This document shows positions 25,920 to 62,927 of a DNA stretch of 64,000 nt, piece by piece. Source of the stretch: an uncultured Myxococcales bacterium. GTDB lineage: Bacteria; Myxococcota_A; UBA9042. Numbering within the stretch: the first letter of the stretch is position 1; each line of letters begins with the position of its first letter. The translations under genes were made by a program, and so were the position numbers. Below the pieces are notes generated by a model, which was not told the origin of the DNA, made no database searches, and saw only the letters and a program-made list of their open reading frames with translations. The stretch spans positions 1 to 64,000 of the forward strand of contig CAIYBN010000038.1 of assembly GCA_903924465.1 (NCBI GenBank), given 5' to 3'.

Positions 25920-26378
25920 CTACTTCGGCTTGCCGCCCATGCCGAGCGAGACATTCTTGACGCCCAAGCCTTGCAGCTTGCCCAATAATTCGGCGACTTG
26001 CAGGTACTTCAGCTCCTGATCAGCCTCGATGCGCACCTGTAGGTTCGGCTCCTTGGCCAGCCGGTCGATGACGTCCTGTTCCAGCGTCTTGGGATCGGTC
26101 GCCGCGCCGGCGTTGTACAGCGCGCCGTCCTTGGTCATCTTGACGACGAGATCCTGCGCTGGCGGCTGATCGCTTGGCACCATGCCGGATGGCAACTGCA
26201 AATCGAGCGCCGTGGCCGCATCCGCATCGCGTTGGCCTTGATCCGTCACGACCGCGGCGGTGGACACCATGAAGATGATCAGCAGCACGAGCACGACATC
26301 GATGAGCGAGGTCAGGTTGAGATCGACCGACTCGCTGCCTTCCATGTCGTCGGCTGTGCCCCAGTCAAACCGCGCCAT
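25920..26378 (-). CDS. exbD: ExbD/TolR-family proton-channel subunit (second copy)
   Basis: A 152-residue protein of normal ExbD length. The membrane helix carries the essential Asp27 in LTSLIDVVLVLLIIFMV, followed by a periplasmic domain ending NVSLGMGGKPK. Its start overlaps the end of the upstream exbB by 14 bases. This pair has no adjacent tonB-like gene, so it may power a partner elsewhere or act as TolQR. Confidence 0.92.
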   Translation of the reverse strand: MARFDWGTADDMEGSESVDLNLTSLIDVVLVLLIIFMVSTAAVVTDQGQRDADAATALDLQLPSGMVPSDQPPAQDLVVKMTKDGALYNAGAATDPKTLEQDVIDRLAKEPNLQVRIEADQELKYLQVAELLGKLQGLGVKNVSLGMGGKPK

Positions 26379-27057
26379 GGGCCTCTCCCGCGCCGCGCGT
26401 TTGGTTGCCCATCGCCGTGATCAGCGCTTGCGGCGGCAGGCGCGCGAAATCGTCGGCGGCGTCTTCCACCAGCACCTGCACTTCCAGCACGGCATTTTGC
26501 AGCTGCGCCTTCAGGAATTGGTGCAACAGCACGATCACCAGCGCGACCGCCAGACCGCCCGCCGTGCTCACCAGTGCTTCCGACACGCCACCCGCCACGA
26601 CGTCCAAGCCGCCCGATCCCGACTGGCCGATGTTCTTGAGCGCCTGCATGATGCCGAGCACGGTGCCGAACAGCCCGGTGAACGGCGCCATCGAGCCCAG
26701 CGTTGCCAGCATGCCCAGCCCGCGTTTCAGCCGCAGCAGCAGCCGTCGCCCGTCCCGGCTCATTTCAGCCAGAATATCGTCGCGCGACGCTTGGCGGATG
26801 GCCGCTTCCACGCCGCGCATCAAAACCGGCGACAAACCCGCCGGCGCTTTGGAACAGAGCGACAGCACGGCCGGCAAATTGCCCGCGACCACGGCGTCGC
26901 GAATACGCCGATCCAGCGAACGCACGTGCGTGAGCAGCGCGCGGACGGCCAGCACGCGCTCGACGAAGATCGCCATGCCGACGAAGCCCAGCCCAGCGAT
27001 GGCAAACATCGTCGGGCCGCCCAGCTCAAAAAGGTGCCGCATCTGATCGAGATTCAT
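26365..27057 (-). CDS. exbB: ExbB/TolQ/MotA-family proton-channel subunit (second copy)
   Basis: A 230-residue three-helix membrane protein. The first helix is about residues 12-32. The family signature APFTGLFGTVLGIMQAL and the last helix LVSTAGGLAVALVIVLLHQF follow. It overlaps exbD by 14 bases and forms a two-gene unit. Sequence differs substantially from the first exbB in this window, so this is not a recent duplication. The start at 27057 is chosen from the membrane topology; only a weak GGAC is upstream. Confidence 0.92.
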   Translation of the reverse strand: MNLDQMRHLFELGGPTMFAIAGLGFVGMAIFVERVLAVRALLTHVRSLDRRIRDAVVAGNLPAVLSLCSKAPAGLSPVLMRGVEAAIRQASRDDILAEMSRDGRRLLLRLKRGLGMLATLGSMAPFTGLFGTVLGIMQALKNIGQSGSGGLDVVAGGVSEALVSTAGGLAVALVIVLLHQFLKAQLQNAVLEVQVLVEDAADDFARLPPQALITAMGNQTRGAGEAHGAV

Positions 27058-27233
27058 GTCTGTCCGATTGCCCCGCGAGAATCGTTCCAGGGCTGCAACA
27101 CCAGTGAGCGGTGAAACGTTCCCACCGCCACAGTATAGGCACTCGCCGCCAGCTACGGAAGCGATTCGCGTTGACACCGCGCAATCCTCCACCGATCCTG
27201 TTGCATCGACCGTTTCCCGGTCGTCGAGGTCCC

Positions 27234-28241
27234 ATGCGTCGGTTGAGTGGCGTGCCTTTTGAACCGTGGCTTCTGGAGCGGATCCAGAGCGCGCGGCATA
27301 TCCTGCTGTCGACGCACGTCGGCCCGGACGCGGATGGCCTGGGTTCGCAACTGGCCTTTGTGCGCGCGGCGCGGGCTTCCGGACGCACGGCGCTTGTCGT
27401 CAACGAGGATCCGCGGCCAAAACGCTACGCATGGCTGGATCCCGACGACGATATTGGTCACTTCGATCGCGACGCAGCCAAGCTGCAAGGCGCTGATTTA
27501 GGACTGCTTTTTGACACCCACGAAGTTGATCGGGCCGGGCGCCCGGCGCAGGCGCTGCGGCAGCAAGGTGTGGACGTTTGGGTCGTGGATCACCACGCGG
27601 TCAAGCCGGATCTTGACCTGCAAGGCTGCGTGGCGACGGAGTTTTCATCGAGCGGCGAACTGGTCTACCGGCTGCTGCAGGCGCTGGACTGGCCGATCGA
27701 TCCCGTGGCCGCGCGCGCACTGTACGCGGCGATCAGCTTCGACACCGGATCGTTCCGATTTCTGCGCAACCAGGCGAATACGCTCCGCGTCGCGGCGGAC
27801 TTGCTCGACATGGGCTTTGACGCAAATCCGGTGCAGGAAGCGCTGTTTGCCAGTCGGACCAGCGACGAGACGCTGCTCCTCGGTCGCGTGCTCGCCCAGA
27901 TGCAGTTCGCGGGCGACGGTCGGATCGCGTGGGCGGCGCTGGGTCCGGAAATTGGTGACGGCCTGAACCTGGAGGACGACGCCATCGGCGAGACGATCCC
28001 ACAGTTCGTGGGCGTGGACGGCGTGCTCATCGCGATGCAGCTCAAACCAGGGCGGAATCCAGGCCAATGGAAGCTCTCGCTGCGGTCCAAAGCCGCGGTG
28101 AAAATTGGCCACGTTGCGCGGCATTTCGGCGGCGGCGGTCATGAGCACGCGGCCGGCGCGACGCTGCAAGGGGACAAGGACGAGTTGGCGGCGCAAGTGC
28201 TGGCCATGCTGGAACAATCGCTGCCACAACTCTCGGTCTGA
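27234..28241 (+). CDS. nrnA: DHH/DHHA1 phosphoesterase (NrnA-like oligoribonuclease / pAp phosphatase)
   Basis: The 335-residue product has the DHH motifs: PDADGLGS (Asp32/Asp34), LLFDTHEVD (Asp93), VVDHH (118-120) and AISFDTGSFR (Asp169). The DHHA1 substrate motif GGGGHEHAAG is near 300. NrnA-type enzymes degrade short RNA oligonucleotides and nanoRNA, and some dephosphorylate pAp or cyclic dinucleotide products. They are Mn-dependent and cytoplasmic. GAGG lies 6 bases before the ATG. The next gene starts one base after the stop, indicating coupled translation. Confidence 0.92.
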   Translation: MRRLSGVPFEPWLLERIQSARHILLSTHVGPDADGLGSQLAFVRAARASGRTALVVNEDPRPKRYAWLDPDDDIGHFDRDAAKLQGADLGLLFDTHEVDRAGRPAQALRQQGVDVWVVDHHAVKPDLDLQGCVATEFSSSGELVYRLLQALDWPIDPVAARALYAAISFDTGSFRFLRNQANTLRVAADLLDMGFDANPVQEALFASRTSDETLLLGRVLAQMQFAGDGRIAWAALGPEIGDGLNLEDDAIGETIPQFVGVDGVLIAMQLKPGRNPGQWKLSLRSKAAVKIGHVARHFGGGGHEHAAGATLQGDKDELAAQVLAMLEQSLPQLSV

Positions 28242-28242
28242 C

Positions 28243-28470
28243 ATGCGCCCATCCAAAATCGTACAGCGCGACGCGATGGTGTGCTTGTGCAACCGCGTGT
28301 TCCGCAAAGAGATCGAGGCCGCCATGGACCGCGGGGCCTGCACGCTCGCACAGGTTTTTGACGCCACATCGGCGGGCTGCGGTCCCTGCGGCGGAACGTG
28401 CCAGCCACTCGTGGTCAGCATCATCCGGGAACGCTTGGGCGTCGGCGCCGTCACGGAAGGCGAGCTATGA
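28243..28470 (+). CDS. BFD-like [2Fe-2S]-binding ferredoxin
   Basis: A 75-residue protein matching the bacterioferritin-associated ferredoxin fold. Cluster ligands are Cys14 and Cys16 (CLC) with Cys46 and Cys49 (CGPC), the C-x-C, ~30 residues, C-x2-C spacing of Fer2_BFD; an extra Cys53 follows. In other bacteria BFD reduces and mobilises iron from bacterioferritin, and fused BFD domains serve NAD(P)H oxidoreductases. No bacterioferritin is nearby. It lies between the DHH phosphoesterase (1-base gap) and the SWIM protein (ATGA overlap). Confidence 0.85.
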   Translation: MRPSKIVQRDAMVCLCNRVFRKEIEAAMDRGACTLAQVFDATSAGCGPCGGTCQPLVVSIIRERLGVGAVTEGEL

Positions 28471-30083
28471 AAATCGACGAACGCAGCGTGCTCGCGGCTT
28501 TCGCGCCCATCCTGCACCGCCTGTCGACGGTCACGTGGGCGGGCGCGCGGTCCGCTTCTCAAGGCGCCCGTTTGCAGCGCGACGGCGCGGTGGGCCGGAT
28601 TCGGCCAGTGGCAGAAAACATGCTTGCTGCGTCGGTTTTTGACGGCGTGCATCAACGTGTCGAATTGTCGATTGTGCGTCAAGAACTGCATGCCTCGTGT
28701 TCGTGCGGCGAAGCGCCGTGCGCGCACGCGGTGGCGGCCGTGCTGGAGTCCGCGCGGACGGCCCGACAGGCGCATGCGGCCGTGGAACAGCAGTCGGATG
28801 TGCTCGCTGCCCTGCGCTCACGGTTGACGCGCTCGCAGGCGCCGGAGAAGCCGACCGAACCCGCGCGCATGTTGAGCGACCTCGGGCGCATGCCTCTGGA
28901 CGCAGCCGTCGACATGGTGGCGCTGAGCTGGCGGCAATCGCTGCGCCATGGACCGCAGGACATTCAGGATCTGCTGGGCCTGGTCGATCGTCTGGAGGCA
29001 CAAGCCCGCGACGATCACGCGTTGGCGCGCGACCTGGCCTTGCGGCTGCTGACGGCGCTCGGTGCCACCAAGGTCGTGTTCAGTGGCATGCCAGAGGCCG
29101 TGGAGCCGTCGATCCGCCTGCTGGCGCGTCTGGCTCTCGATCGGCCGCTGGACTTGGGTCCGCAGTGGAATCTCCTGTTTGATTTGGCCGAAGCGGGCCA
29201 TCCGCAGGTCGCCGTCCATCTGGCCATTGGCTTGGAGCACGCGGCGATTCGGTCGTCAGAGCTGGCGGTTGCGCTGGCAGAAATGCTCTCCGGTCGCGTG
29301 CTGGCACAGCGCGCGATCTGGCGCGAAGTGGCGACGCCGACGTCCCGCGATGCGCTGGCCGATGGTTTGGTCGTGGCGCTGGTACGGCACGACAACTTGC
29401 CCGCAGCGCTGGAACTGGCGCAACTCTGGCCGCCGATGCGGTCGGGCGCGCTGGCGCTGGCGGAGGTTCTGGGCAGTCTGGGTCGCCACGCCGAGGTGCT
29501 GCATTTGGCCGAGCACTATGACCCGCGTGGGGAAATCTGGCAGGCGCTGATCGCGGCTGCCATGACGGCAGCCACGCCTGAACATCCCAAGGCCGCGCGA
29601 CAACTGGCGCGGGCCGCGTGGCAGCGTGGGCCGAACTTGCACACGTTCAACCAACTGGCGCAGCTGAGCCGCGGCGAGCTTTGGCGCGAGGAACGGCATA
29701 CGCTGGCCTCCCAGGCGCTGGCGGAAGATGACGTGGCGTGGCTGGCCGAGCGGCTGGCTCAGGAACCCGACGCGGTGGATGCCTTGCTGGAAGTGGCGCT
29801 GCAATGGCCGCTCCGCGAACGTTTTCAACGCGAGGCGCTGACGCACCTGGAAAGATTGTCGCCGGAAGCGGCGTTTCGCATCCGCGCGCTGCGTGTGCAC
29901 TCGCTCGTCGTCACCAACGTCGCGGCGCGCACGCTGAAGGACGAGTTGGTGCGGCTGAAGGAATGTGCCACAGCGCTGGGCGAGCCGGGACTGGCCAGCG
30001 AATTCGCGCGGCTGCTCGTGCGGGAAGTCGGTGAAAAGGCCGCGTGGGTGAGTGCCGTGTCGGCGGTTTTTGGCCGCGCTTGA
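28467..30083 (+). CDS. SWIM zinc-finger protein with long helical region
   Basis: The 538-residue product carries the SWIM signature CxCx4CxH at Cys78, Cys80, Cys85 and His87 (SCSCGEAPCAH). The preceding small beta-strands (AVGRIRPVA, QRVELSIV) are typical of that domain. From about 150 to 538 it is almost entirely helical and Leu/Ala-rich with helix-pair periodicity, suggesting a TPR-like or HEAT-like scaffold. SWIM fingers bind nucleic acid or protein; the helicase often found beside SWIM proteins is absent here. It is coupled to the BFD gene by ATGA. The role is unknown. Confidence 0.8.
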   Translation: MKIDERSVLAAFAPILHRLSTVTWAGARSASQGARLQRDGAVGRIRPVAENMLAASVFDGVHQRVELSIVRQELHASCSCGEAPCAHAVAAVLESARTARQAHAAVEQQSDVLAALRSRLTRSQAPEKPTEPARMLSDLGRMPLDAAVDMVALSWRQSLRHGPQDIQDLLGLVDRLEAQARDDHALARDLALRLLTALGATKVVFSGMPEAVEPSIRLLARLALDRPLDLGPQWNLLFDLAEAGHPQVAVHLAIGLEHAAIRSSELAVALAEMLSGRVLAQRAIWREVATPTSRDALADGLVVALVRHDNLPAALELAQLWPPMRSGALALAEVLGSLGRHAEVLHLAEHYDPRGEIWQALIAAAMTAATPEHPKAARQLARAAWQRGPNLHTFNQLAQLSRGELWREERHTLASQALAEDDVAWLAERLAQEPDAVDALLEVALQWPLRERFQREALTHLERLSPEAAFRIRALRVHSLVVTNVAARTLKDELVRLKECATALGEPGLASEFARLLVREVGEKAAWVSAVSAVFGRA

Positions 30084-30089
30084 ACGGTG

Positions 30090-31139
30090 TCACCCGTCGA
30101 GACGTGCCAGCCGCTCGCACAGCGCCAACGCGACAAGTGCGGATTGCCGGTCAAAGGCCTGGTGAGCAGCGGCACGCGCGCGGTCCAGCGTCGCATCCAA
30201 ATGGGCACGCGCCGTCGCTTCGCCACCGACCTCACGCACCCAGGCCACCGCGTGGGCCACGTCGCCATCGCTGGGCGGTGAGCCTTGCGTTGCCTGACGC
30301 AGCAGGGCCCGAATTCCATCGGCTTCGGCACCCGGAACGTCGCGCAGCGCAACAAGCACCGGCCACGTCGGTTTGCCTTCACGCAGGTCCGCACCGGCGT
30401 CACCGCGGCCCTTGGTCCCGAGCAAATCCAGCAAGTCATCGCGAATCTGGAACGCCAAGCCGATTTCCCGACCCAGCGCCCACGCGGCCTGTTCGGCCTC
30501 CGGCCCCCGGCGCAACAGCCGCGTCGCGCCGACAAAACAGGCAGAGAACAGCGGTCCAGTCTTGGCCAAATGCACCGATTCGACATCCAGCAAAGTCGGC
30601 TGCGGCAGATCGCGCAGGGCCAGATCGGCAACTTGCCCGCGAATCGTTTCGCAAAGCGCGTCCGCGAGGAGCGCGCCCAGCGGCGCGCGCAGATCGGCTG
30701 CGATCGCATCCGACCGCAGCACAGCGGCAACCGCACCCATCAGCAGCGCATCGCCAGCGTTGATCCCTTGCGCCACGCCAAATTGCGTCCACAACGTCGG
30801 TCGACCGCGCCGGAGCGTGTCGCCGTCCTGGATATCATCGTGGACCAACGTGCCGTTGTGAATCAGCTCGACGCCCGCGCCAAACACGCGCGCAGCGTCC
30901 ACCGGCCCGTGCTCGGCTGCCACGAGTGCCGGCGTCAACAGCGCGCGCAACCGTTTGCCACCACTGGCCAATTGGTCGCGACACATCGCGGTCAGCAAGT
31001 CCTGACCGGCTGGTCGGGTCACGCCCACAGGCACGTGCGGCTGTGGCGCTTGCAAAAGTTCGAGAGCCAACTCCTCGCAATCCGTGAGAAACGGCGCAAT
31101 GAGCGTTTCCAGCAGGGGCAAAGGGTGCGGTGCAGTCAC
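30090..31139 (-). CDS. Polyprenyl (geranylgeranyl-type) diphosphate synthase
   Basis: A 349-residue all-helical trans-prenyltransferase condensing IPP with allylic diphosphates. The first Asp-rich motif is DDIQD (in LVHDDIQDGD), without the two-residue insertion of bacterial FPP synthases. The second is DDLLD (IRDDLLDLLG). Small residues (Gly, Thr) at positions -5 and -4 before the first motif suggest C20 or longer products, though length cannot be read safely. The GTG start at 31139 is favoured by GGAGG four bases upstream and by a GTGA overlap with the kinase gene. It is the last gene of the mevalonate operon. Confidence 0.92.
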   Translation of the reverse strand: MTAPHPLPLLETLIAPFLTDCEELALELLQAPQPHVPVGVTRPAGQDLLTAMCRDQLASGGKRLRALLTPALVAAEHGPVDAARVFGAGVELIHNGTLVHDDIQDGDTLRRGRPTLWTQFGVAQGINAGDALLMGAVAAVLRSDAIAADLRAPLGALLADALCETIRGQVADLALRDLPQPTLLDVESVHLAKTGPLFSACFVGATRLLRRGPEAEQAAWALGREIGLAFQIRDDLLDLLGTKGRGDAGADLREGKPTWPVLVALRDVPGAEADGIRALLRQATQGSPPSDGDVAHAVAWVREVGGEATARAHLDATLDRARAAAHQAFDRQSALVALALCERLARLDG

Positions 31140-32083
31140 ACGACCTCCGGAGCGATGTCGGCGGGTAAATGCGCGACGAGATGACCGCCGCGACATTGCC
31201 AGTCGTGGGCGAGTCGGGTGATGGCGTCGGCGTTGTCGGCGAACGCGAGGACACAATCGCCGCCGCCGGCCCCGGACGCCCGCGTGACACAGCCGTTCGC
31301 CACAATCCGTTCACGCACGGCTGCGATCGGCGGTGGGATCAGGCTCGGATCGTCCGTGGCTGCTGTGACAAAGGCGTCATCACAAGCTTGCAGCGCCGTC
31401 AGGATGACCGACGGCGGGCCGGACCAGACCTGCAGGAGGTAGCGCGCCGCGCGATCAATGGCGTCCAAACGTGCTTGCGCCATGGGCACTTTGTCGAGCG
31501 CCGCTTGCGTCGGTGCCGGCTCGCCGGAGAAGAGCGCCAAGCCGTAGAGGCCGGACGGCCACGGCACGTGGCGAGCCCGGTCCGGTGACCGTTCGTACGC
31601 CACACAACCGCCAAACGCGATGGTGGTGACGTCGTAGCCGCTGCCGGTACCTTGTCCCCCTGCGTGAATTTGCCTTGCGGCTTCAGCGAGTTGACCGGGT
31701 GACCACTGAACGCGTCGGTCTTCCAGCACCGCGCGAACCGTCGCGATCGTCACCGCCGCGCTCGTGCCCAGGCCCACTTTTGCGCCACCGACTGCGCCCG
31801 TAACGTCGAGGGTCAAATGGCAGGCAAGGGACAGCCCCGCGTGTTGTTCGAGCCACGCCAGCGCGCGCGCGACAAACCCCAGCAAACCAGTGGCATGCCA
31901 AGGCTTGGACTCAAGCACAAACGTCTGGTCGAACGCGTGCATCGTCACACCTGGCGCATCCAGCGACAGCTTGGAACGCACCACATCGCCGACCGCCACC
32001 GCCAGCGCGACGCCGTGCGGCCGCAGCACCGCGTATTCGCCCGCCAGCATCAGCTTGCCTGGAACGACGCGCAGCTCAGCCAC
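31136..32083 (-). CDS. mvaK2: Phosphomevalonate kinase (GHMP superfamily)
   Basis: About 315 residues. Motif 1 reads VPGKLMLAGEYAVL, which with the GEY ending is characteristic of phosphomevalonate kinase. Motif 2 is GLGTSAAVT and motif 3 SGAGGGDCVLAF; GSGYDVTTIAFGG also fits. It makes mevalonate diphosphate from the 5-phosphate. The start is inferred as GTG at 32083, overlapping the mvaD stop by 8 bases. A longer ATG-started reading inside mvaD would add about 20 residues atypical for the family. Confidence 0.87.
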   Translation of the reverse strand: MAELRVVPGKLMLAGEYAVLRPHGVALAVAVGDVVRSKLSLDAPGVTMHAFDQTFVLESKPWHATGLLGFVARALAWLEQHAGLSLACHLTLDVTGAVGGAKVGLGTSAAVTIATVRAVLEDRRVQWSPGQLAEAARQIHAGGQGTGSGYDVTTIAFGGCVAYERSPDRARHVPWPSGLYGLALFSGEPAPTQAALDKVPMAQARLDAIDRAARYLLQVWSGPPSVILTALQACDDAFVTAATDDPSLIPPPIAAVRERIVANGCVTRASGAGGGDCVLAFADNADAITRLAHDWQCRGGHLVAHLPADIAPEVV

Positions 32084-33071
32084 GTTCCGGAACCAATCGG
32101 GCACCGTCGCCGACGCGTGTCTGCAAAACCGCTTCAACGCCATCGATCTCCGCCAGCGCCGCGGCGACGGGTCCGGCATCGCTCGGCTCGACGAGCACGA
32201 CAACCGACGACCCGGCGTCAATGGTGAAGCAGCAAGCGGTGCCTTCGGCACGCAGATTGCGGACCGTGTGGATCACGGCCACGGTCGCGGGCTGCCAGTA
32301 CAACAGCGGCGGCCGACTCGCCATCATCGTGCCGTGCATCGCCATCGCATTGCCTTCCACCACTTCAGCCAGCCGCTCCATGTCTTTTTGCGCCAGCGCC
32401 GCCTGACACGCCACGACGTCCTGCTGGCATTGCTCGATCCAGCCGCGAAACGTCAGCGAATCCGATGCCGCCATGCGCATACCGCTGGTCGATGACACTT
32501 TCTTTTTTCCATCGCGGACTTGCGCCACAAGGATCGTCAGCGGCCAATGATCGGCGGCGAACAGTTGCCGTGCTTCGGAGTCCGATCCGTCAGCTTTCTG
32601 GCCACATTCCCATTGCACATAGCCGCCGTGGATCGATCGACTGGCCGAGCCCGAGCCCGTCCGCGCCAGCCGCGAGAGCGTCGCCTTGTCCAGATCAAGG
32701 CCGTAGGCGTGCGACGCGGACATGGCCAAGGCGGCAAAAGCCGAAGCGCTGGACGCCAAACCGCGGGCCGTGGGCACGGTGTTGATGGAATTCAGCCCGG
32801 CGAACACGTCCGATCCGGCCATTTCCCGAATGATGCCGAGAACACGGCGTACTTTGATCATACCGGCATCGTCGAGAGGGCGATCGTCAACCGCCATGAC
32901 GTCGTGCGTCAGGCCCGGCTCGGGGGCGCAAACGGTCAGGGAGCCAAGCTCGCTCAACGTGACGGAAATCGAGGAAGCCAATGGCAAGTTGAGCGTGTGA
33001 TCGCGCTTGCCCCAATACTTGGTCAGCGCGATGTTGGAAGGCGCGAACGCCGCTGCGCGTTGCAACGTCAT
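32076..33071 (-). CDS. mvaD: Diphosphomevalonate decarboxylase
   Basis: A 331-residue enzyme converting mevalonate diphosphate to IPP with ATP. It shows the hallmark NIALTKYWGKRD near the N-terminus, the phosphate-binding loop ARGLASSASAFAALA, and the late catalytic aspartate in TIDAGSSVVVL. The length matches bacterial and yeast-type enzymes. The ATG overlaps the upstream kinase stop as ATGA and has GGAG eight bases before it. Confidence 0.94.
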   Translation of the reverse strand: MTLQRAAAFAPSNIALTKYWGKRDHTLNLPLASSISVTLSELGSLTVCAPEPGLTHDVMAVDDRPLDDAGMIKVRRVLGIIREMAGSDVFAGLNSINTVPTARGLASSASAFAALAMSASHAYGLDLDKATLSRLARTGSGSASRSIHGGYVQWECGQKADGSDSEARQLFAADHWPLTILVAQVRDGKKKVSSTSGMRMAASDSLTFRGWIEQCQQDVVACQAALAQKDMERLAEVVEGNAMAMHGTMMASRPPLLYWQPATVAVIHTVRNLRAEGTACCFTIDAGSSVVVLVEPSDAGPVAAALAEIDGVEAVLQTRVGDGARLVPERG

Positions 33072-34006
33072 GAGTTCTCCGGATAAATGGCCAATGTCCA
33101 AAACGTGCGAATGCGCGGGGCGATCGCCGCCGCAACGGCTTGCGCTTCGTCTTCGGTCCGGCAAAGGGCCAGCAACATGCCGCCCAAGCCTGCGCCCGTC
33201 TGCTTGGCGGCCAGCGCACCAGCAGCACACATCGCCGTGAGCGTCTCGCGCATCGCCACATTCACGACGCCCAAGGGTTCCATCGCCTCGCCGGCCGTTC
33301 GCAGCGCGATGGCCAGGCGCGTCAGGTCGCCCGATTCCAATGCGTCCAACGCCTGATCGGCCGCGGCAGAAGTCTGGTCGTTCAAGGCGCGCACGGCCTC
33401 TGCACCGAGTTCACGCCGTTCGTGCATGGCAATCGCAATCGCGTCGCGGGTCGGCACCGACGCCCCCAGATCCGCGAGCAGCCAACGCGCCGTCGCCAGC
33501 TTGGGCGCGACCCGCACGCGTTGCAGAACTTGGCCCTGTTGGAACAGCACCGGCTCCGTGCCCGCCGCAGCCGCCGGATCGAGTCCGGAGGAACGGCCGT
33601 GAACGATCGATTCGCACTGGCGAGCGGCTTGCAGCAGCTCCGCAGGCGTTGGCTCGGCACGCTCCGCAAGTTGCCAGGAGGCACGGACCGCGGCAACTGC
33701 GAGCGCCGCCGACGAGCCCAGACCGCGCCGCATGGGCACTGTCGACACAATGTGCGCGCGAATCTCGCCGGTCAAACCCGCCGACTGCGCCGCCGCGACG
33801 AACATTTGCCGCGTGTCGTGCGCCACCTGGGGGTCGACGTCGTCGTCCAGCACCACGCGCAACGCACCCGCATCGCCACGCATGAGCGTCACGTCGGTGC
33901 GAAAAGGCGGCAAACCGATGGCCAGGGCCCGCGCGCCGTCCATCACGTGGTGTTCGCCGATCAGAATCGTCTTGCCGTGCCCATGGCCTGTCGCAGTCGT
34001 CGTCAT
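33068..34006 (-). CDS. mvaK1: Mevalonate kinase
   Basis: A 312-residue GHMP kinase phosphorylating mevalonate. Motif 1 is GHGKTILIGEHHVMDGA, motif 2 PMRRGLGSSAALAVA and motif 3 KQTGAGLGGMLLAL; the catalytic aspartate is in SSGLDPAAAAG. The GEHxV ending of motif 1 separates it from the phosphomevalonate kinase two genes downstream. ATGA overlap with fni upstream; GAGG precedes the start. Confidence 0.93.
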   Translation of the reverse strand: MTTTATGHGHGKTILIGEHHVMDGARALAIGLPPFRTDVTLMRGDAGALRVVLDDDVDPQVAHDTRQMFVAAAQSAGLTGEIRAHIVSTVPMRRGLGSSAALAVAAVRASWQLAERAEPTPAELLQAARQCESIVHGRSSGLDPAAAAGTEPVLFQQGQVLQRVRVAPKLATARWLLADLGASVPTRDAIAIAMHERRELGAEAVRALNDQTSAAADQALDALESGDLTRLAIALRTAGEAMEPLGVVNVAMRETLTAMCAAGALAAKQTGAGLGGMLLALCRTEDEAQAVAAAIAPRIRTFWTLAIYPENS

Positions 34007-35076
34007 CGGCGACCTCGCGGGTCGGTGTGCGCCATGAATCGCAGGTCCGCTTGCCGCAATTGCAGCAAATCCGGCGCGCCGGCGAGGAACATGGTGATGC
34101 GCAAAGTCTCGATCACGGCTTCGATCGCCGCAACCACCGCTTCGACACCGTCTTGCGCGGCGACCAGAAACGGCCAGGCCATCGCGCAAGCGTCGGCACC
34201 CAAAGTGATGCACTTCGCCACGTCCAGGCCATCGCGCAACCCGCCGGAACCAATGACCAACCGGTTCGGCAGCGCGCGCCGGGCGAAGATGATGCTGTCC
34301 GCAGTTGGCGTACCAAAATCCGCCAGCACCGCGCCCGCGATCGCGCGCGGCGTGTGCGCGTGTTGCCGCAGCGCCTCAATTTGCGCCCACGAGGTGCCGC
34401 CCACGCCCGCTGTTTCAACGCCCGCAATACCGGTCAGACGCAGTGCCTGGAGCGTTTCCTCGCCCAGCCCGCAGCCGACTTCCTTGACCAGAATCGGCAA
34501 ATTCGCGCCAGCCGCTGCTTCGCCGATTGCATCCAGCACGCCACGCCAGTCGCGATCACCTTCAGGCTGAATCGCTTCCTGCAGCGGATTCAAGTGGACG
34601 TAAATCGCATCCGCCCCCACCGCTTGGGCCAACGATTCCAGCGTGCGGGCATCCAGCTCGTCGCGCAGCTGAATGCCGCCGATGTTGCCGATGATCAAGG
34701 TCCGCGGCGCGACATCGCGCAGGTCAAAGCTCGCAACTTCTTCTGGACGTTCCAGCATCGGCCGCTGAGAACCGAGGCAGAATCCGACATTCGTTCGCTC
34801 CGCCGCTTCGGCCAGCATCCGGTTCACGCGTCCCGCTTCGGTCGTCCCGCCCGTCATCGCGCCAATCAGCAGCGGCGCCGCCAGGGTCTTGCCCAACAGC
34901 TGACAGCGCAAGTCGATGCGATTCAGGTCAAGTTCCGGTAGCGACAGCAACTCAAAACGATAGCGGTCAAGGCCGTTCCCAATGCCGGGCTGCTGGACCC
35001 GGCCGTCCAACGCGATGCGCAAGTGGTCGCCTTTGCGGTCGCCGAGCTGATCTGATTTTCGCGGAGCGTGCGCCAT
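34003..35076 (-). CDS. fni: Type 2 (FMN-dependent) isopentenyl-diphosphate delta-isomerase
   Basis: The 357-residue TIM-barrel flavoenzyme interconverts IPP and DMAPP. Family motifs visible are KGDHLRIAL at the N-terminus, LIGAMTGGT, NVGFCLGSQRPML, HLNPLQEAIQPEGD, ILVKEVGCG, AGVGGTSWA and GSGGLRDG (phosphate of FMN). It is the first gene of the overlapping mevalonate operon. There is no ribosome site before the ATG. A promoter-like sequence places the transcript start only a few bases upstream, so it may be translated from a leaderless message. Confidence 0.94.
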   Translation of the reverse strand: MAHAPRKSDQLGDRKGDHLRIALDGRVQQPGIGNGLDRYRFELLSLPELDLNRIDLRCQLLGKTLAAPLLIGAMTGGTTEAGRVNRMLAEAAERTNVGFCLGSQRPMLERPEEVASFDLRDVAPRTLIIGNIGGIQLRDELDARTLESLAQAVGADAIYVHLNPLQEAIQPEGDRDWRGVLDAIGEAAAGANLPILVKEVGCGLGEETLQALRLTGIAGVETAGVGGTSWAQIEALRQHAHTPRAIAGAVLADFGTPTADSIIFARRALPNRLVIGSGGLRDGLDVAKCITLGADACAMAWPFLVAAQDGVEAVVAAIEAVIETLRITMFLAGAPDLLQLRQADLRFMAHTDPRGRR

Positions 35077-36551: not shown

Positions 36552-37607
36552 CTACTTGCCACACTTGAACGACGGTGTGTGCAGGCATTCGCCGGTCGGA
36601 AACACGCACTTGTCATCCGTGCACGCGTCGCCGTCGTTGCAATCCTTGGTCAGCCCGCTGCAGATGCTATTGGTGCACAGCGTGTTGTAGGTGCAGGGAT
36701 TGCCGTCGTCGCACGGGCCGCCGTCCGGGATCGGTACGTTGCTGCAGGCCGCGTTCTTGGGGTCACACGTGTCGGACGTGCACGGGTTGCCATCGTCACA
36801 GGTCTTCAGCGTGCCTTTGCAGGCGCCGTCGATGCAATTGTCAAAATTCGTGCAGACTTGGCCGTCGGAGCAGATCTGCGTCAAGTTGACGTGCTGGCAG
36901 CCGCCGGACCCCTCGCAGCTGTCCGCCGTGCACGCGTTGTCGTCGTCACAGAGGCCACCGCCCTTGCACGCGCCGAACGTGCACTTGTCGTCCGCCGTGC
37001 ACGGGTTGCCGTCGTCGCACGTCGGGCCGCTCAGCGCCACGGTGTGACAGCCCAGCGTGCCGCTGCAGTCTTCCTGGGTGCAAGGGTTGCCGTCGTCGCA
37101 AGCGGAGCCAAAGGCGAAACACGAGCCGTCGGTGCAGCGGTAGGCTGTGCACGGATCGCCGTCGCTGCAGGACTGATTGGTCGGGGCGTGCACGCATCCC
37201 GTGATCGGATCGCACGCGTCGAGGGTGCACGCGTTGCCGTCTGAACACTGAACTGCCGAACCAATGCACGCGCCTTTGAAGCAGGCGTCGTGGAGCGTGC
37301 AGATGTCGTTGTCGTCGCAGACAAAGCCGTTGGGCCCGGGCTGGAGGCGGCACTTGCCGTCCGTGCACACGCCGACACCGCATGGCGTATCGGTCTGGCA
37401 ATCGTTGTCGCCGGTACACGGTCTGCCTTCGATGGGGCTCGGCGGGGCGCTGTCCTGATCGTAGCTCGCCGCGTCACTGGCGTCGTGGTTCGCACCGTCC
37501 GCGCCATAACTGGTGTCCGCGCCGACACACGAGGTCAGAAGCGATGCGCAGGCCAAGCCGAGCGCCGCTGCGTGCCAGATTTCTCGTTGGGTCATTTGCG
37601 CGCTCAC
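36552..37607 (-). CDS. Cys-rich lipoprotein made of Dictyostelium-type CTDC repeats
   Basis: A 351-residue protein with lipobox LLTSC (Cys about 27), an Asp/Ala/Tyr-rich linker, and from about residue 60 to the end a chain of 20-25-residue repeats of the form CDDGNPCTxDxCxxxxGC. This is the Dictyostelium (slime mould) repeat pattern of prestalk extracellular proteins. Start: GTG at 37607, because GGGAGG sits six bases upstream of it. The longer ATG reading at 37625 would contain that ribosome site inside the gene. Likely disulfide-linked, rod-like and surface exposed; function unknown. Confidence 0.82.
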   Translation of the reverse strand: MSAQMTQREIWHAAALGLACASLLTSCVGADTSYGADGANHDASDAASYDQDSAPPSPIEGRPCTGDNDCQTDTPCGVGVCTDGKCRLQPGPNGFVCDDNDICTLHDACFKGACIGSAVQCSDGNACTLDACDPITGCVHAPTNQSCSDGDPCTAYRCTDGSCFAFGSACDDGNPCTQEDCSGTLGCHTVALSGPTCDDGNPCTADDKCTFGACKGGGLCDDDNACTADSCEGSGGCQHVNLTQICSDGQVCTNFDNCIDGACKGTLKTCDDGNPCTSDTCDPKNAACSNVPIPDGGPCDDGNPCTYNTLCTNSICSGLTKDCNDGDACTDDKCVFPTGECLHTPSFKCGK

Positions 37608-37765
37608 AGCATGCCTCCCAAACATAGCGTAGGCTGTTCCGCCACCCTCGTCGACGCGAGACTCACGAATCTAAATAATTGTGACGGAAATTCGAGTGCG
37701 GCAGGAACCAGGGACATTTGCGAAAAACTTGACCTGCCGGAAGCGATGGAATCCCGACGCGATCT

Positions 37766-47657: not shown

Positions 47658-50600
47658 TTACGGCTTTTGCGGGACGCCCGGCGAATTGGCCGGGCAACTG
47701 CCCGTCGACTGCAGGCAATGGTTGCGCGGTGTGAGCGTCTCGGTCGAGACGAAGTTGTCCTTGTTGCTGTTGGTATCCCAGCCGGCACCGGCATAATACC
47801 ACGGCGAGAGGAGCGAAATGACGTCGTCGGCCATCAGACCCGGCGCAGGCAGCCGCTTGATCGCGCACGGCTGCGTGTTGTCCGGGCAACCGGGCGCGCC
47901 TGAGCCTTCGCCATACGCCCACATGAACGGATCGGGGCCCCAGCTCACGCGATCCAGCACCGTCGCCTGACCCGCGGCGTCGTAGCGAAGCAACCGCAAT
48001 GTGCCGGTATCCGGGTAGAGGCCCCACGTCAGCCCCGCGACGAAGTCCGGTCCAGGCAGCTTGCCGTCGTAGGTGCTCGGCGCGATGAGGAAATAGGAAT
48101 GGGCGTGGACGATGCCGGTCAGCGGCTTCTTGTTCACGTCGGAATCCGTGGCGTTGAGCAAGGTGCCGACCGTCGTGTAGCGGAACTTGATGTACAGGTT
48201 GTCCAGCACAATGTCCTGGTTGCTGCGGTTGTAGAGCACGATGTACTCGTTCGCCGCGCTGTTCAGGCTGCCGCCGCCTGGCGTGGTCGAATTGGCGCCT
48301 TGCGGGCTAATCTCTGCGAACACCAAGCCGGTCGCGTCGCATGCCGGCGTGGCGAGCGCGACGTCGCAGGAGTAGCCGCCGCCGGATGTTGAACCTTGCG
48401 TGTTGCAACTGCCGCCGCACGTGGGGTCCGCGCACGTGCCGCCGGTGGTGCCGGTGAAAGGACAGACGGAGCCAAATGCGCACGTGCCGCCGCATGCGGG
48501 TTCAAATTGCCCCGATGCCTTCGACTGCGCGCCGGGAACGTCCTGGTCGATCCAATCCTTGTCATCGCTGCCCGTGTCCTGACCGTTGCCGGCCAGACAA
48601 TGGCCGCCACCGGGTTTCAGGTCGGCCGCGTAATCAAACTGCGCCGACCGACGTTCCAGCGAGTCGCCTGGCGTCACGGCGGTGCCCACCTTGTAGGAAG
48701 CGTTGGTGCAATTGCTGAACGACAGCGCGCTGCCCCAGCCGACGGTGTCGATTTCCGAATCGGTGCGCGGATCCCACAGGCGCAGGGCGCTGCCGGCCGG
48801 ATCGAGCCCCAACGAACCCCAAACGAGGGCATCGACACCACCAGACGTCGCGGCATAGGCGGCTGTGCCAATGGCGAAGTAGCGGTGCGGAGGCAACGTC
48901 ACGGCAGCGGGCACCTGAAAGAGCACGGTCCACGGATCGCCGCATGCCGCGCTCGCCGACTTGAACTGGACGACGTATCCGGACATGTCGATCGCCTGGC
49001 TCGCGGCGTTGTACAACTCGATGAACTGCGCGTTGCTGTTGCTGGCGGCACCGGGCAGGATTTCCGAAAACAGCAAGCCCGGCACGTTCACGTTGCACAT
49101 TTGCTCGGCGCACGTCTTGCCGCTGCCACAGCCGATCGCGCACTTGGTGTCCGCGACGCAGGCCTCTGCAGCGGGCGTGTAATTGCAGGTTTGCAGTGGA
49201 AGCTCCGGACAATTGCCGCCGCACGCCGGCTCGTACACACCGGAAAGATGCGTCTGTGGATCCGCGGTCAGACGGATGACATAGTTGTCGTTCGGCATCG
49301 CGCCGCCGGTGTAGTCGTTGCCCGCCAGCCACTCCTTGTGGTGGTAGGCCATGCTGTCCGCCGTGCTCGTGGCTGCCGCGCGGCGCTCCAGCGATGAGGC
49401 CGACGCACTGCCCAAGCTGACCGGCGTCACGTCGACGCCCATGTCGGTGCAGCCGCCCGCATCCAGACACAAACGATCGTGCACCAAGCCGTTCACCGTG
49501 TCGCGCAAGCGCAGTTGCCCGACTGTGATCGTCACCGGCTGGTTGGCGACGGTAATTGGCACGCCGTTCGTGTCGACCTGCGCCGCGTGCTTGAAGTCCA
49601 GCGTCGGAGCGACGACATCGGCCGCGTTGCCGCCGATCACCGTCGCGCTGTGGGCCAGGAGCAGGTAGCCGTGCGCGCTGATCGCGCCCGCTGTGCCAGT
49701 GTCCGTCAGCGTGGTCCAGCCAACACCCGGTGCGGGATTGGCCTCCGCCACTTCGATGGCGTAGCTTGGAATGGCCACGTCATTCGCGGTGGGATTGTGA
49801 ATTTCGATCCAGTCATCGCTCGGGTCGTTGGCGACGCCGAGGTAGAGCTCGCTGATGAGGATCGGCTTGCTCGAGAACACGCAGGCCGGCACGAGGTCGT
49901 TGTTGCACTTGGCCAGGGGGCCGCAGTTGCCGTTCGGATCGTTGGTGTGGGTCGGGCCAGTTTTGGGATCGCATCCGTCCAGCGTGCACGGATTGCCGTC
50001 GTCGTAGGGAATCAACTTGCCGGCGCAGGTGCTGCTGACGCAAACGTCGTTGTTCGTGCAGGGGTTGCCGTCGTCGCACAGGTACGCGCCCAACGCGGAG
50101 TGGATGCAGGTGCCGGGTTGCGTCAACGGGTCGATGTTCGATGACCAGCAGGAGTCGGCCGTACAGGTGTTGCCGTCGTCGCAGTTTTTGGCGACGCCGC
50201 CCTGACAGACGCCGTCGGCGCAGGTTTGGCTGATCACGCACATGTCGCCGCCCTGGCACGGATTCGTGTTGGTCTTCTGCACGCAAGCGTATTTTTGCGT
50301 CAACGGGTCAACCGTCGTGCTCGTCGGGTCACACGTGCCGGTGTAGCAGCCGCCGACGTTGGGCACTTTGCAGTCCTTGGGCTTGCCCGATACGCATTTG
50401 CCAAAGATGCAGCTGTCCTGGCCGACGTTGGTGGAGCCATCGGCAGGGACTTTCGTGTCTTCGCCGGTGCAGGGGTTGTTGTCGGTGCACGCCGTTCCGT
50501 TGATCACGGGCCCGGATTTGCAGCCGGTCTTGGGGTCACAGGAGTCGAGCGTGCACGGGTTGCCGTCGTCGCAAACCTTGGGTGTGCCGCCGCAGACTCC

Positions 50601-52739
50601 GCCAGTGCACTGCGGCGTCAACTGACACACGTCGCTGAGTTTGCACGCTGTCCCGTCATCGACCGGCGTATGCACGGAGCAGCCGTCGGTGCCCAGTTTG
50701 GGGTCGCACGCGTTGTCGGTCGTGCAGTCGTTGCCGTCGTCGCACTTGTTGGTCGGGCCGCTGCAAACGCCGGCCGAACAGGTGTCGTTGCTGGTGCACC
50801 AATTGCCGTCAGAACACACCGTTCCATTGGGCATGTTGGGCTTCGCGCATGTACCCTTGGCCGGGTCGCATGCGTACGTGTGGCACGGCAGCTTGACCTC
50901 GGACGCGCACGGATCGACCGGCGGCGTTCCGGAGAAGATGCAGGTGTGCGTTTGCGTGGCGCAAACGTGCGGCGCTTGGCATTTGTTCGTGTTGAAACTG
51001 ACGCAGTCCGAATCCAGCGCGCAGTTGCAGTACGGCTTATTGGTCGAGGGGTCGATGGCGTTGCCCACGCACTTGCCCAGCGTGCACTTGTCCACTGGCG
51101 TGCAACTGTCGTTGTCATCGCACTTTGCGCCGTTGAACGGGTGCATGCAGCCGACGGCCGAGTCGCAGTAGTCCGTGGTGCACACATTGGCGTCGTCACA
51201 CACCGTCATGCTCGTTTTTGCGCATTTGCCATAGCCGTCGCAGTGGTCGCCCGTGGTGCAGACGTTGCCGTCGTTGCAGGTCGTGCCAGCGGCGGTGAAC
51301 ACGTAGTCGCATTGGCCCGTGTCTGGGTTGCACGTGTTGGTTCTGCACGTCCCGTTGCCGAGCGTCGAACATTTCACGATCGTCGCCGGGTCGACCACGC
51401 ACGTGTTCGAGCTGCTGCAGTGGTAGGTCCCCAAACAATTGCTGTTGAAACTCGCGCAGTCTGCGTCCACGACACAGCCACAGGCCGTTGGATTGAGCGC
51501 GCCGGTCGTGCACGATCCCCCGGCGCAGACGCCGCCCATGGTGCAGGGGTTGTGATCGTCGCACGGGACGGTGTTGGCAGTGAACGTGCACCCCTTGCTG
51601 TTCGTGGAAACGCAGGCGTCATCGGTGCAGTCATTGCCGTCGTTGCAGACGACCGGCGTCGAGGCGCAGACGCCATCGGTGCACAAGTCCGGGAATGTAC
51701 AGACATCGCCATCCGTGCAGTGGATCGTGTTGGGGCGATTGGCCGGCGCGCACTTGCCGGTCGTCGGGTCGCACGTGTTCACCTGGCATTGCAGGTTCAA
51801 GTTGGTGCACGGTGGCGTGACCGTAGTCGGGTCGAGCACGCAGAGGTTGTTGGTGCAAATGTGCTTGCCCAGGCAGAGGTTGGCGCTGTCCTGCACCGCG
51901 CAATCCGCGTCGACTTGGCACGCGCAAACATTCACAGTGCCCGGAATACACGCGACACCCGAGCACTTGTCGCCAACGGTGCAGGGATCGCCGTCGGCGT
52001 CGCACGGCGTGCCGGGTATGTTCGATTCGGACTTGCAGCCCCCGTTCGCCGTCAGCGCCTCGACGCAAGAATTGAGGGTGCAGGGATTTCCGTCCTCGCA
52101 ATCCTTCGGTGTGCCCTTGCAGGTACCAGCGGTGCAGGCGTCGTTCACGGTGCACTTTTTGCCGTCATCGCAGAGGCTGCCGTCTGGCGCGGCGCCGCTG
52201 GCCATGCAGAGACCACTGGCGGCGCCCGGTTCCACGAGGCACAGGAACTTTGGCGCGCATGAACTGGCAGCCACGACGCCGCAGTCCGCGTCCACTTTGC
52301 AGGAGATGCCCGCGTCCACTTCGACTTCCGCATCCTGCGCATCGGTGTCCGTGTCGTCCGCATCCACGCCCGCATCCACGTCGTCGGCAGCGTCGGTCAG
52401 GTCGGTTGCATCGTCGATGTCGTCCTGAATGTCTTCATCCGTCGGCTCGTCCTGCTCATCCGGACCCGTGTCGACTTCCTTCGCGTCCTTGCCTTTGACG
52501 TCGTGCACATCGAGCTTGACGTCATGCACGTCGACAATGTCCTGCACGTCATCTTGCACGTCCGGTTCATCGGTCGTTTGGTCGGTGTCGTCCTCGATGA
52601 TCGGATCCTCTTGCGCCGTATCCGCAGTCTTCTTGCCAAAGAGCGCCGACAGCTGCGAACAGCCCGTGCCCGCCAGCAGCAGCGCGATCATCCCAGAACT
52701 ACACAGCAAACGAAAAAGTGGCGAAGGAGATGGCCGCAT
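47658..52739 (-). CDS. Giant Cys-rich lipoprotein with Dictyostelium-type repeats and three lamin-tail-like domains
   Basis: The 1693-residue product has a lipoprotein signal (LLAGTGC, Cys about 27) and an extremely acidic Asp/Val/Thr linker (about 40-150). Many Cys-rich repeats of the CDDGNxCTxDxC type follow (about 150-945). Then three domains begin PILISELYLG (about 950), LLFSEILPGA (about 1220) and LVFAEISPQG (about 1470), each followed by an EIHN, ELYN or VLYN strand, the lamin-tail/LTD pattern. The start at 52739 has CGGAG 8 bases upstream. It heads an operon with the ABC-F ATPase and an outer-membrane lipoprotein. Probably a surface-attached rod; no enzymatic motif seen. Confidence 0.85.
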   Translation of the reverse strand: MRPSPSPLFRLLCSSGMIALLLAGTGCSQLSALFGKKTADTAQEDPIIEDDTDQTTDEPDVQDDVQDIVDVHDVKLDVHDVKGKDAKEVDTGPDEQDEPTDEDIQDDIDDATDLTDAADDVDAGVDADDTDTDAQDAEVEVDAGISCKVDADCGVVAASSCAPKFLCLVEPGAASGLCMASGAAPDGSLCDDGKKCTVNDACTAGTCKGTPKDCEDGNPCTLNSCVEALTANGGCKSESNIPGTPCDADGDPCTVGDKCSGVACIPGTVNVCACQVDADCAVQDSANLCLGKHICTNNLCVLDPTTVTPPCTNLNLQCQVNTCDPTTGKCAPANRPNTIHCTDGDVCTFPDLCTDGVCASTPVVCNDGNDCTDDACVSTNSKGCTFTANTVPCDDHNPCTMGGVCAGGSCTTGALNPTACGCVVDADCASFNSNCLGTYHCSSSNTCVVDPATIVKCSTLGNGTCRTNTCNPDTGQCDYVFTAAGTTCNDGNVCTTGDHCDGYGKCAKTSMTVCDDANVCTTDYCDSAVGCMHPFNGAKCDDNDSCTPVDKCTLGKCVGNAIDPSTNKPYCNCALDSDCVSFNTNKCQAPHVCATQTHTCIFSGTPPVDPCASEVKLPCHTYACDPAKGTCAKPNMPNGTVCSDGNWCTSNDTCSAGVCSGPTNKCDDGNDCTTDNACDPKLGTDGCSVHTPVDDGTACKLSDVCQLTPQCTGGVCGGTPKVCDDGNPCTLDSCDPKTGCKSGPVINGTACTDNNPCTGEDTKVPADGSTNVGQDSCIFGKCVSGKPKDCKVPNVGGCYTGTCDPTSTTVDPLTQKYACVQKTNTNPCQGGDMCVISQTCADGVCQGGVAKNCDDGNTCTADSCWSSNIDPLTQPGTCIHSALGAYLCDDGNPCTNNDVCVSSTCAGKLIPYDDGNPCTLDGCDPKTGPTHTNDPNGNCGPLAKCNNDLVPACVFSSKPILISELYLGVANDPSDDWIEIHNPTANDVAIPSYAIEVAEANPAPGVGWTTLTDTGTAGAISAHGYLLLAHSATVIGGNAADVVAPTLDFKHAAQVDTNGVPITVANQPVTITVGQLRLRDTVNGLVHDRLCLDAGGCTDMGVDVTPVSLGSASASSLERRAAATSTADSMAYHHKEWLAGNDYTGGAMPNDNYVIRLTADPQTHLSGVYEPACGGNCPELPLQTCNYTPAAEACVADTKCAIGCGSGKTCAEQMCNVNVPGLLFSEILPGAASNSNAQFIELYNAASQAIDMSGYVVQFKSASAACGDPWTVLFQVPAAVTLPPHRYFAIGTAAYAATSGGVDALVWGSLGLDPAGSALRLWDPRTDSEIDTVGWGSALSFSNCTNASYKVGTAVTPGDSLERRSAQFDYAADLKPGGGHCLAGNGQDTGSDDKDWIDQDVPGAQSKASGQFEPACGGTCAFGSVCPFTGTTGGTCADPTCGGSCNTQGSTSGGGYSCDVALATPACDATGLVFAEISPQGANSTTPGGGSLNSAANEYIVLYNRSNQDIVLDNLYIKFRYTTVGTLLNATDSDVNKKPLTGIVHAHSYFLIAPSTYDGKLPGPDFVAGLTWGLYPDTGTLRLLRYDAAGQATVLDRVSWGPDPFMWAYGEGSGAPGCPDNTQPCAIKRLPAPGLMADDVISLLSPWYYAGAGWDTNSNKDNFVSTETLTPRNHCLQSTGSCPANSPGVPQKP

Positions 52740-52822
52740 CGTGTCGCTCCGGGTTCTCACAGAGAGTCCAACCCGCGTTAGAATACCGGGTAGCCTGCCC
52801 TTGCGGCAAGGAGATTGCCCGG

Positions 52823-52950
52823 CTTGCGTCGAAACAGGCTGCGCCCGGCAAGTCGTCCGGCCGCGAAGACATGGAGCGGCAAGCACGAAGTGCGTGGGGC
52901 GGCGCGGCAGGAGGTGCGGAACGTCGCTTGCGTCGAAACAAGCTGCGCCC
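52823..52950. repeat. 24-bp direct repeat pair upstream of secA
   Basis: Copies at 52823-52846 and 52927-52950 share CTTGCGTCGAAACA and then RGCTGCGCCC, differing at one base, with a period of 104 bases. They lie in the 252-base divergent gap between the giant lipoprotein gene and secA. They could be regulatory or the remains of a small duplication. The rest of the gap shows no convincing gene. Confidence 0.7.
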
Positions 52951-62600: not shown

Positions 62601-62824
62601 TCGGTGCCCGCCGCAAAATCCGTCAGAGCCGTGGCATCTGAGCCGCTGGGCACGTCCAGTTTCTTCACGTCGGTCGTGAACAGCAAGCCGTCGGATGGGT
62701 CGAGCGTGTCCGCCGCTGCACTGTTGCCAGTCCCGTCGGTTGTCGGATTCGAGCAGGCCATGCACGCAGCCGCCAGCCATGCCCAGCCGCGCAAGTTCTT
62801 GCGCCCCGCAAGCAGTTTTCCCAT
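59630..62824 (-). CDS. Large Cys-rich lipoprotein with MopE-like motifs, Dictyostelium-type repeats and PPC-like C-terminus
   Basis: About 1064 residues. The signal sequence ends in ACMACSN (probable lipidation at the second Cys, lipobox atypical), followed by an Asp/Ala-rich linker to about 95. Two MopE-like copper-binding motifs, ETCNNLDDDCNGKTDD (about 213) and EICNGLDDNCDGTADEG (about 265), come before the repeats. About 280-905 is a chain of CADDGxxCTxDxCxxGxC and CDDGNxCT repeats. About 911-1064 is a beta-rich domain resembling bacterial pre-peptidase C-terminal (PPC) domains (YENNNTPDGTA, DYYHFTAS). GGAGGGG lies 9 bases before the ATG. Function unknown; likely surface-exposed. Confidence 0.82.
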   Translation of the reverse strand: MGKLLAGRKNLRGWAWLAAACMACSNPTTDGTGNSAAADTLDPSDGLLFTTDVKKLDVPSGSDATALTDFAAGTDAALVDDTPADAAPADNGSSAFGHLCMPCTDSALCQTTAGSNNLCIPDGEKGSFCGSSCSLSNPKTCPDGFTCSAVVDSATGQTVAQCRPNNGECGCSPEAVAQALTVPCTHVTSAGTCTGVRTCTATGLTPCDAPTPVSETCNNLDDDCNGKTDDLGSNTACSNSNAAGTCVGTIASCKDGVALCDAATPVAEICNGLDDNCDGTADEGMCDDGNPCTTGICGSDGSCGQIPESGAVCDDGSVCTDSDLCVKGKCVGQSTQCDDGNPCTTDGCDTAGGCTHTNNGEACTDDGNSCTVDVCLAGACGHTPLGDGATCQDDGNACTLDGCLAGVCMHTDDPFDPACADDNNLCTQDICKASACAHVPVAGDVTCADDNNVCTDDLCKAGACQHPAAATETACADDGVACTNDLCAGGQCTHPALVSGSPCADDGKPCTDDVCQTGTCQHPAKAIGATCADDGLPCTSDTCQNGVCVHLASLTGQSCPDDGDPCTVDICTKQGGCGHTIASGKCEIAGVCYADGQSSPTDPCQQCIPATSQVGFSAAPGKPCEDGNLCTVGETCSGGICQGGGPKDCASLSSTCGTAACDKASGACVITPKSGPCDDGDVCTASDHCSAGQCIGTPKDCSPFDAVCATGTCVGGTCSAVPKVGTCDDGNPCTVNDACAGNKCAGTVLDCSGLNSVCGAGSCKDGACIATPKVGSVACDDGNGCTFNDQCANGLCVGTVVNCSNLSGACANGVCDPATTGCILSSFPTTAACSDGDSCTLNDHCDGAGKCTGTEISCAPTGDPCNLSYCAGGKCQIAPTPDGGACNDNSACTQSDKCVGGACKGQGIFDQYENNNTPDGTAITDKSDCAGSSTLSASISPAQDVDYYHFTASDLTGCSIYPDVGITGLAADYDLCAWFRCTGGKSGSGVVACDAGTYAASGPNGESGCCSSNSGTASEHVRLNNTCSFLGMGDDGGTVTIQVFPKNAAAASMCGGYTVTWKAN

Positions 62825-62927
62825 TTCTTTCCCCTCCTGCCAGACACCCCAGCCTTGCAGCATGACAGATCTTGACGACCACAGCCATCGATTGGAACTG
62901 CATGTTTGCGTGGGAATTGGCGCGGTG

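Follow-up and report, generated by a model that had tools for sequence, protein, structure and literature searches.

What links a DHH phosphoesterase, a small BFD-type protein and a SWIM zinc-finger protein is the question raised by three adjacent genes in a 64,000-nucleotide stretch of an uncultured Myxococcota genome (contig CAIYBN010000038.1; the whole stretch is hereafter the window). An earlier annotation made from the letters alone (the sequence-only reading) described these genes as one unit with a gap of +1 base and an ATGA overlap, and the coordinates were confirmed: one base separates the DHH and BFD genes, and the BFD and third genes overlap by four bases. It also called the combination unfamiliar and undescribed, and our literature search likewise found no description of the set. 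No publication was found on the three genes together, or on an NrnA or DHH protein with a coenzyme A (CoA) pyrophosphatase or Nudix protein, in a search that did not cover subscription papers and outside preprints; a paper on MoxR conflict systems contains no occurrence of SWIM, DHH, BFD or ferredoxin. The component families are known, and the three-gene set and a five-cysteine form of BFD protein are apparently new. Our answer, held tentatively and at a little under even confidence, is that an NrnA-type nanoRNase is made from an operon together with dedicated scaffold and iron-sulfur (Fe-S) helper partners. The features concerned are as follows.

27234..28241, + strand: NrnA-like DHH/DHHA1 phosphoesterase gene (335 amino acids; PF01368 and PF02272)
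28243..28470, + strand: gene for a BFD-like protein, predicted [2Fe-2S] (75 amino acids; PF04324; C14, C16, C46, C49 and C53 invariant)
28467..30083, + strand: third gene, SWIM finger plus alpha-solenoid protein (538 amino acids; AlphaFold2 model with predicted local distance difference test (pLDDT) 89.3 and predicted template-modeling score (pTM) 0.65)
28467..28829, + strand: SWIM module covering residues 1-121 at the N-terminus of the third protein (homologous module in SNF2 helicases; probably younger than the solenoid)
28698..28727, + strand: SWIM zinc ligands C78-x-C80-x4-C85-x-H87 (invariant in 15/15 homologues)
28896..30071, + strand: alpha-solenoid (ARM/HEAT/TPR-like), residues 144-535 of the third protein, from the AlphaFold2 model
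28467..28470, + strand: ATGA overlap of the BFD stop and third-gene start, from the sequence (translational coupling)
27055..27233, no strand: intergenic region up to the divergent ExbB gene (ExbB open reading frame on the - strand, ATG 27054, a start chosen by the analyst)

The family sample comprised 22 genomes of uncultured Myxococcota from 10 genera, nine of them testable; the class sample held 52 genomes (these 22 and 30 others) and the phylum sample 282. Genomes other than the window's (G000, 94.6% complete) are metagenome-assembled, going by their titles, and gene starts in the relatives were set by rule. The DHH gene leads directly to a homologue of the third gene in 21 of the 22 family genomes, the exception being G006, whose contig stops inside the DHH gene and which is untestable for the genes downstream. 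A BFD gene lies between the two in 19/22 (absent from G015 and G019; G006 untestable). At the junction of the BFD and third genes a 4-base overlap is present in 11 of the 19 BFD-bearing loci, and all 19 fall within -20 to +6; the third gene is cut by a contig end in G009, G014 and G017, and further pieces of it lie on another contig. Outside the genus the third protein retains only 34-42% identity, and within the genus the ratio of nonsynonymous to synonymous polymorphism (pN/pS) is 0.16 for DHH, 0.42 for BFD and 0.17 for the SWIM protein.

Beyond the family the set was not found. The third protein is present in none of the 30 non-family genomes of the class (in G043 a longer frame matches in its SWIM region only), has no full-length match in the remainder of the 282 phylum genomes (G092 and G178 match over the SWIM region and its edge only), and gave no match on plasmids. 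The proposal that the genes would be neighbors beyond the strain and its close relatives therefore holds throughout the family (third protein 21/22, BFD 19/22) and stops at its border. Likewise, the one-unit description is right in that the gene order is real, family-wide and bounded, and too strong in that the BFD gene is missing from 2/21 and the SWIM finger from 6/21 testable genomes. These results indicate that the three-gene neighborhood is more than chance and that what stays constant is the pairing of DHH with the solenoid, not an indivisible three-part system. A member of this Myxococcota family is also carried by L050, titled a Klebsiella pneumoniae metagenome-assembled genome (CAMDBH010000075.1); the title looks wrong.

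The window DHH protein matches PF01368 (1.4e-11) followed by PF02272 (1.3e-08), both above cut-off, and carries no other domain. Its nearest solved sequences are 4ls9, 5jju (Rv2837c) and 5cet, and it is less close to Bacillus subtilis NrnA (structure 5ipp, which we take to be that enzyme). H28, D32, D34, D94, D119-H120-H121, D170 and GGGH at 300-303 are invariant in 16/16 sequences. NrnA/CnpB (Rv2837c) has the same two domains and catalytic motifs and occurs where Orn is missing; unlike it, the window protein lies below the NrnA equivalog cut-off (82 bits on NCBIfam NF053633 against 350) and shares its operon with a dedicated solenoid protein and a BFD protein, neither of which was reported as an NrnA partner in the literature search. 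Because the equivalog cut-off was missed, the protein is filed as NrnA-like only. By its domains and motifs it is an NrnA-like standalone DHH-DHHA1 phosphoesterase, probably the enzyme that degrades the last, very short RNA fragments. Sister families place it after a CoA-pyrophosphatase-like Nudix gene or, in one of them, fuse the two, which makes nanoRNA, pApA or pAp its likely substrates.

A single DHH protein of this type occurs in every family genome, and a homologue (counted at E up to 1e-20) in 43 of the 52 class genomes. Orn scores above cut-off in 8/52: seven of the nine DHH-less genomes and one of the 43 bearing DHH (Fisher p 2e-6, uncorrected for kinship). Partial Orn matches occur in G036, which lacks DHH, and in G009, which has it; G046, the last of the nine genomes lacking DHH, has a completeness of 82%. 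The cyclic di-AMP (c-di-AMP) synthase domain, DAC, is present in 38/43 DHH genomes versus 1/9 DHH-less ones, and a PgpH-type HD protein in 20/22 family genomes. With both present, pApA is to be expected, and this distribution fits a putative Orn-replacing nanoRNase that would also clear pApA.

The sequence-only reading took the third protein for a zinc-finger helical scaffold, and the AlphaFold2 model bears this out: a SWIM module at residues 1-121 is joined by a loose linker (123-136) to an all-helical solenoid (144-535). Against PF04434 the window protein scores 18.5 bits (E 0.0015), just below the cut-off of 19.6, and the profile is listed for 13 of the 15 SWIM-bearing members at E up to 1; the CxCx4CxH motif itself never varies among the 15. 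The module matches five long open reading frames of related genomes (hmmsearch 1e-8 to 1e-12) and is homologous to the N-terminal module of bacterial SWIM-SNF2 helicases. Unlike those proteins, the third protein follows the module with an alpha-solenoid rather than a helicase, and no helicase domain was found in it or its 14 aligned relatives. A second SWIM protein of about 1100 amino acids is encoded elsewhere in 10/22 family genomes (G013, G018, G021, G007, G001, G008, G004, G010, G003 and G012), and in G018 it was confirmed as SWIM plus SNF2_assoc plus SNF2 helicase. The stated absence of a SWIM-linked helicase is thus correct for the window genome, where none was detected, and does not extend to the family.

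Fold searches with the third protein yielded nothing more specific than generic solenoids, no one family stood out, and its sequence has no convincing relatives among solved structures. The third row of structural matches was the human ZSWIM8 structure 9rwz (Z 9.4, root-mean-square deviation 22.9 A, 235 residues aligned), which also has a SWIM domain near its N-terminus followed by a helical solenoid, although ZSWIM8 is far larger and has cullin-binding parts. As the match falls within the generic helical-repeat range, we use it as a comparison of architecture and not of kinship. ZSWIM8 is an E3 substrate receptor in microRNA degradation; according to the available part of PMC13083262, its SWIM domain organizes a dimer in which an RNA-protein complex is clamped between the solenoids.

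The SWIM module is missing from six of the 21 testable family genomes (G009, G011, G014, G015, G017 and G019), where the protein begins near the linker. The natural SWIM-less homologue of G011 was modeled as an all-helical solenoid (pLDDT 86.6, pTM 0.80). On the DHH tree these six genomes branch off one after another at the base, and the 15 that carry the module form a clade (support 99/99); because of this basal position, the module is probably a later addition to an older solenoid. Since even G009, the most basal row, has the BFD gene, G015 and G019 have probably lost it. Read along the tree, the build-up starts with the enzyme, continues with solenoid and BFD, and ends with the SWIM finger. 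A tie of the SWIM finger to c-di-AMP was also considered, DAC being missing in 4/6 SWIM-less and 0/15 SWIM-bearing family genomes (p 0.0025), and was rejected; the six SWIM-less genomes form one basal grade and the test was post hoc, so no such claim is made.

The window BFD protein matches PF04324 (6.1e-11, 42.9 bits against a cut-off of 26) and is a predicted [2Fe-2S] carrier. It shares with Bfd the BFD-like domain and a CxC near the N-terminus, and differs in its five cysteines (C14, C16, C46, C49 and C53, invariant in 15/15) and in the AGCGxCGGxCQP motif at the second ligand site. Of the three sequences it is under the weakest constraint, yet the five cysteines never vary.

The limits of the operon are set by its neighbors. 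The gene 3' of the third gene is convergent in 14/14 loci examined, which makes the third gene the last of the operon; in the window this neighbor belongs to a mevalonate-type cluster. Upstream stands a divergent ExbB/ExbD pair, and a divergent ExbB precedes DHH in 12/17 testable loci. All three genes would be transcribed as one mRNA, whose promoter likely lies in 27055..27233. The promoter search gave no sigma-70-type match for the operon, terminator-like sites around it were no more frequent than expected, and no riboswitch or other Rfam RNA was matched within 26000-31500.

From these results we propose a tentative sequence of four steps. The DHH enzyme would, very probably, carry out the terminal step on 5'-phosphorylated 2-5-mers, on pApA derived from c-di-AMP and/or on pAp, where Orn is missing. 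The solenoid translated from the same mRNA may hold the enzyme in a complex and present it to the source or site of its substrate, a step we regard as evenly balanced; such a complex would be the likeliest reason why the two, presumably made in step from one mRNA, stay paired in each genome that could be tested. It is more doubtful that the five-cysteine BFD-type protein binds this complex, for which it would sense or carry Fe-S cluster status, and ties its activity or assembly to that status; the possible redox regulation raised by the sequence-only reading would have the presence of a BFD-type protein as its one support. Finally, the crown clade probably gained the SWIM finger at the front of the solenoid, where it may act as a nucleic-acid contact or dimer-forming head, a role we hold less likely than not and draw by comparison with ZSWIM8, whose SWIM domain organizes two solenoids into a clamp (PMC13083262, in the part available).

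Several observations weigh against this proposal. Co-transcription alone would yield an identical gene order. The fold matches of the solenoid are generic, the best (Z 9.6 in one fold search and 10.4 in another) lying within the generic helical-repeat range. The DHH protein misses the NrnA equivalog cut-off by the margin given above. The BFD sequence is the loosest of the three, and its absence from G015 and G019 indicates that it is inessential to the DHH-solenoid pair. G024 holds both DHH and Orn, and the partial Orn match of G009 stands at a contig end. Moreover, the DHH/Orn and DHH/DAC patterns track family lines with few independent events behind them, so the Fisher values are overstated. 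The NrnA-like enzymes tested in the accessible portion of PMC9757072 also act only weakly on pAp.

The best-surviving alternative, which we consider possible, is that the genes are co-transcribed without any complex: DHH would be an NrnA-type housekeeping enzyme, and BFD and solenoid would serve another process, such as iron handling, sharing only its promoter. This would account for the two genomes that retain DHH and solenoid without BFD, and for the other class genomes examined, in which DHH has neither BFD nor solenoid alongside. However, the solenoid gene stays beside DHH in 21/22 family genomes despite wide divergence, and no extra gene joins the unit downstream. An extended form of the complex, in which the five-cysteine [2Fe-2S] protein switches the NrnA-type enzyme through a solenoid clamp with a SWIM head, making it a redox- or iron-gated nanoRNase, strikes us as improbable.

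A comparably improbable alternative holds that DHH serves mainly as a pAp phosphatase in CoA turnover or sulfate assimilation, and that its partners would tie it to that pathway rather than to RNA. CoA pyrophosphatase releases pAp from CoA, and pAp is the substrate of pAp phosphatases. Among the 21 non-family class genomes with DHH, a CoA-pyrophosphatase-like Nudix gene stands directly 5' of DHH, or is fused to it, in 16; these Nudix proteins score 113-121 bits on NF007980, just below its cut-off of 134, and GTP cyclohydrolase I is often encoded upstream of the pair. Neighbor genes were called with a simple GC-at-third-position caller, also used for the gene 3' of the operon, in 20 of the 21 genomes (G038 was left out); L186 and L188 were uncalled and their Nudix neighbors were determined separately. 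In family f8, Nudix and DHH form one protein in L198 and L200 (by profile) and in L197 (by translation), and G038 of the same family has both in one shared open frame. These fusions, a pointer to a possible CoA to pAp to AMP route, lie at L198:3353-4960, L200:1034-2614 and L197:4029-5801; in L198 and L200 a GTP cyclohydrolase I gene precedes the fusion. Matches to a cysH-like reductase in 19/22 family genomes, and a DHH-family PAP phosphatase known in Methanothermococcus (PMC10322725, from the part available), point in the same direction. In the family of the window, however, the Nudix gene adjoins DHH in no genome and sits elsewhere, and the cysH matches are all below cut-off. The near-exclusion of DHH and Orn points to nanoRNA, and NrnA-like enzymes are poor on pAp in the available text of PMC9757072.

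That BFD is an ordinary Bfd and the operon serves iron storage is very unlikely and largely refuted. The PF04324 match and phmmer matches to Bfd structures at 6e-05 to 1.5e-04 (6e6s, weakly, at 6.4e-05) would agree with it. However, bacterioferritin scores above cut-off in only 3/22 family genomes (G013, G018 and G021), each with a second BFD that shares a contig with bfr and lies no more than a few hundred bases from it (contigs C19, C113 and C419, respectively), and no match was found anywhere in the window genome, as the sequence-only reading had supposed. Most carriers of the operon BFD are thus without bacterioferritin, and a separate Bfd exists where bacterioferritin is present. Bfd-like proteins beside bfr in other families show the usual four-cysteine CxC...CGxC pattern. 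Because bfr is rare, has its own BFD, and is accompanied by four cysteines and not five, the operon BFD is a different protein from Bfd and is not the partner of bacterioferritin.

A nucleic-acid defense module of DHH nuclease and SWIM protein is rejected as extremely improbable, since its one point of support, a weak match of the SWIM module to PADLOC PDC-S62 (7.9e-05, residues 25-122 only), spans profile positions 18-114 of 566 and falls short of the full profile, the three proteins gave no further PADLOC match, one such DHH occurs in every family genome, unlike patchy defense genes, and the third protein is without plasmid matches.

Other features of the window were recorded as well. The mevalonate-type cluster at 30090-34213 (-) comprises polyprenyl synthase, GHMP kinase-like genes and diphosphomevalonate decarboxylase, is of the bacterial type, and adjoins the operon in same-genus genomes too. 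Proteins with Dicty_CTDC (Dictyostelium-type) repeats are encoded at 47658-52886 (-), 36552-37625 (-) and 59630-62863 (-); one of the three also bears Lamin Tail Domains, and relatives of the 36552 gene have many internal repeats.

Work on NrnA, in the part of PMC9757072 available, leaves open the differential regulation of some NrnA-like enzymes and the existence of further subclasses. In the present family an NrnA-like enzyme is accompanied by one and the same solenoid partner in all genera that could be tested, and by a BFD protein that is not Bfd; the complete, the BFD-less and the SWIM-less form occur naturally and could be used to probe the role of each part. The Nudix-DHH fusion of a sister family points directly to pAp being a physiological substrate of some NrnA-like enzymes, a disputed point. 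A redox- or iron-gated nanoRNase, if true, would give an enzyme known as a lone protein a regulated counterpart built of several subunits, and the clearance of nanoRNA and pApA, and hence c-di-AMP signaling, would be coupled to Fe-S status in these bacteria.

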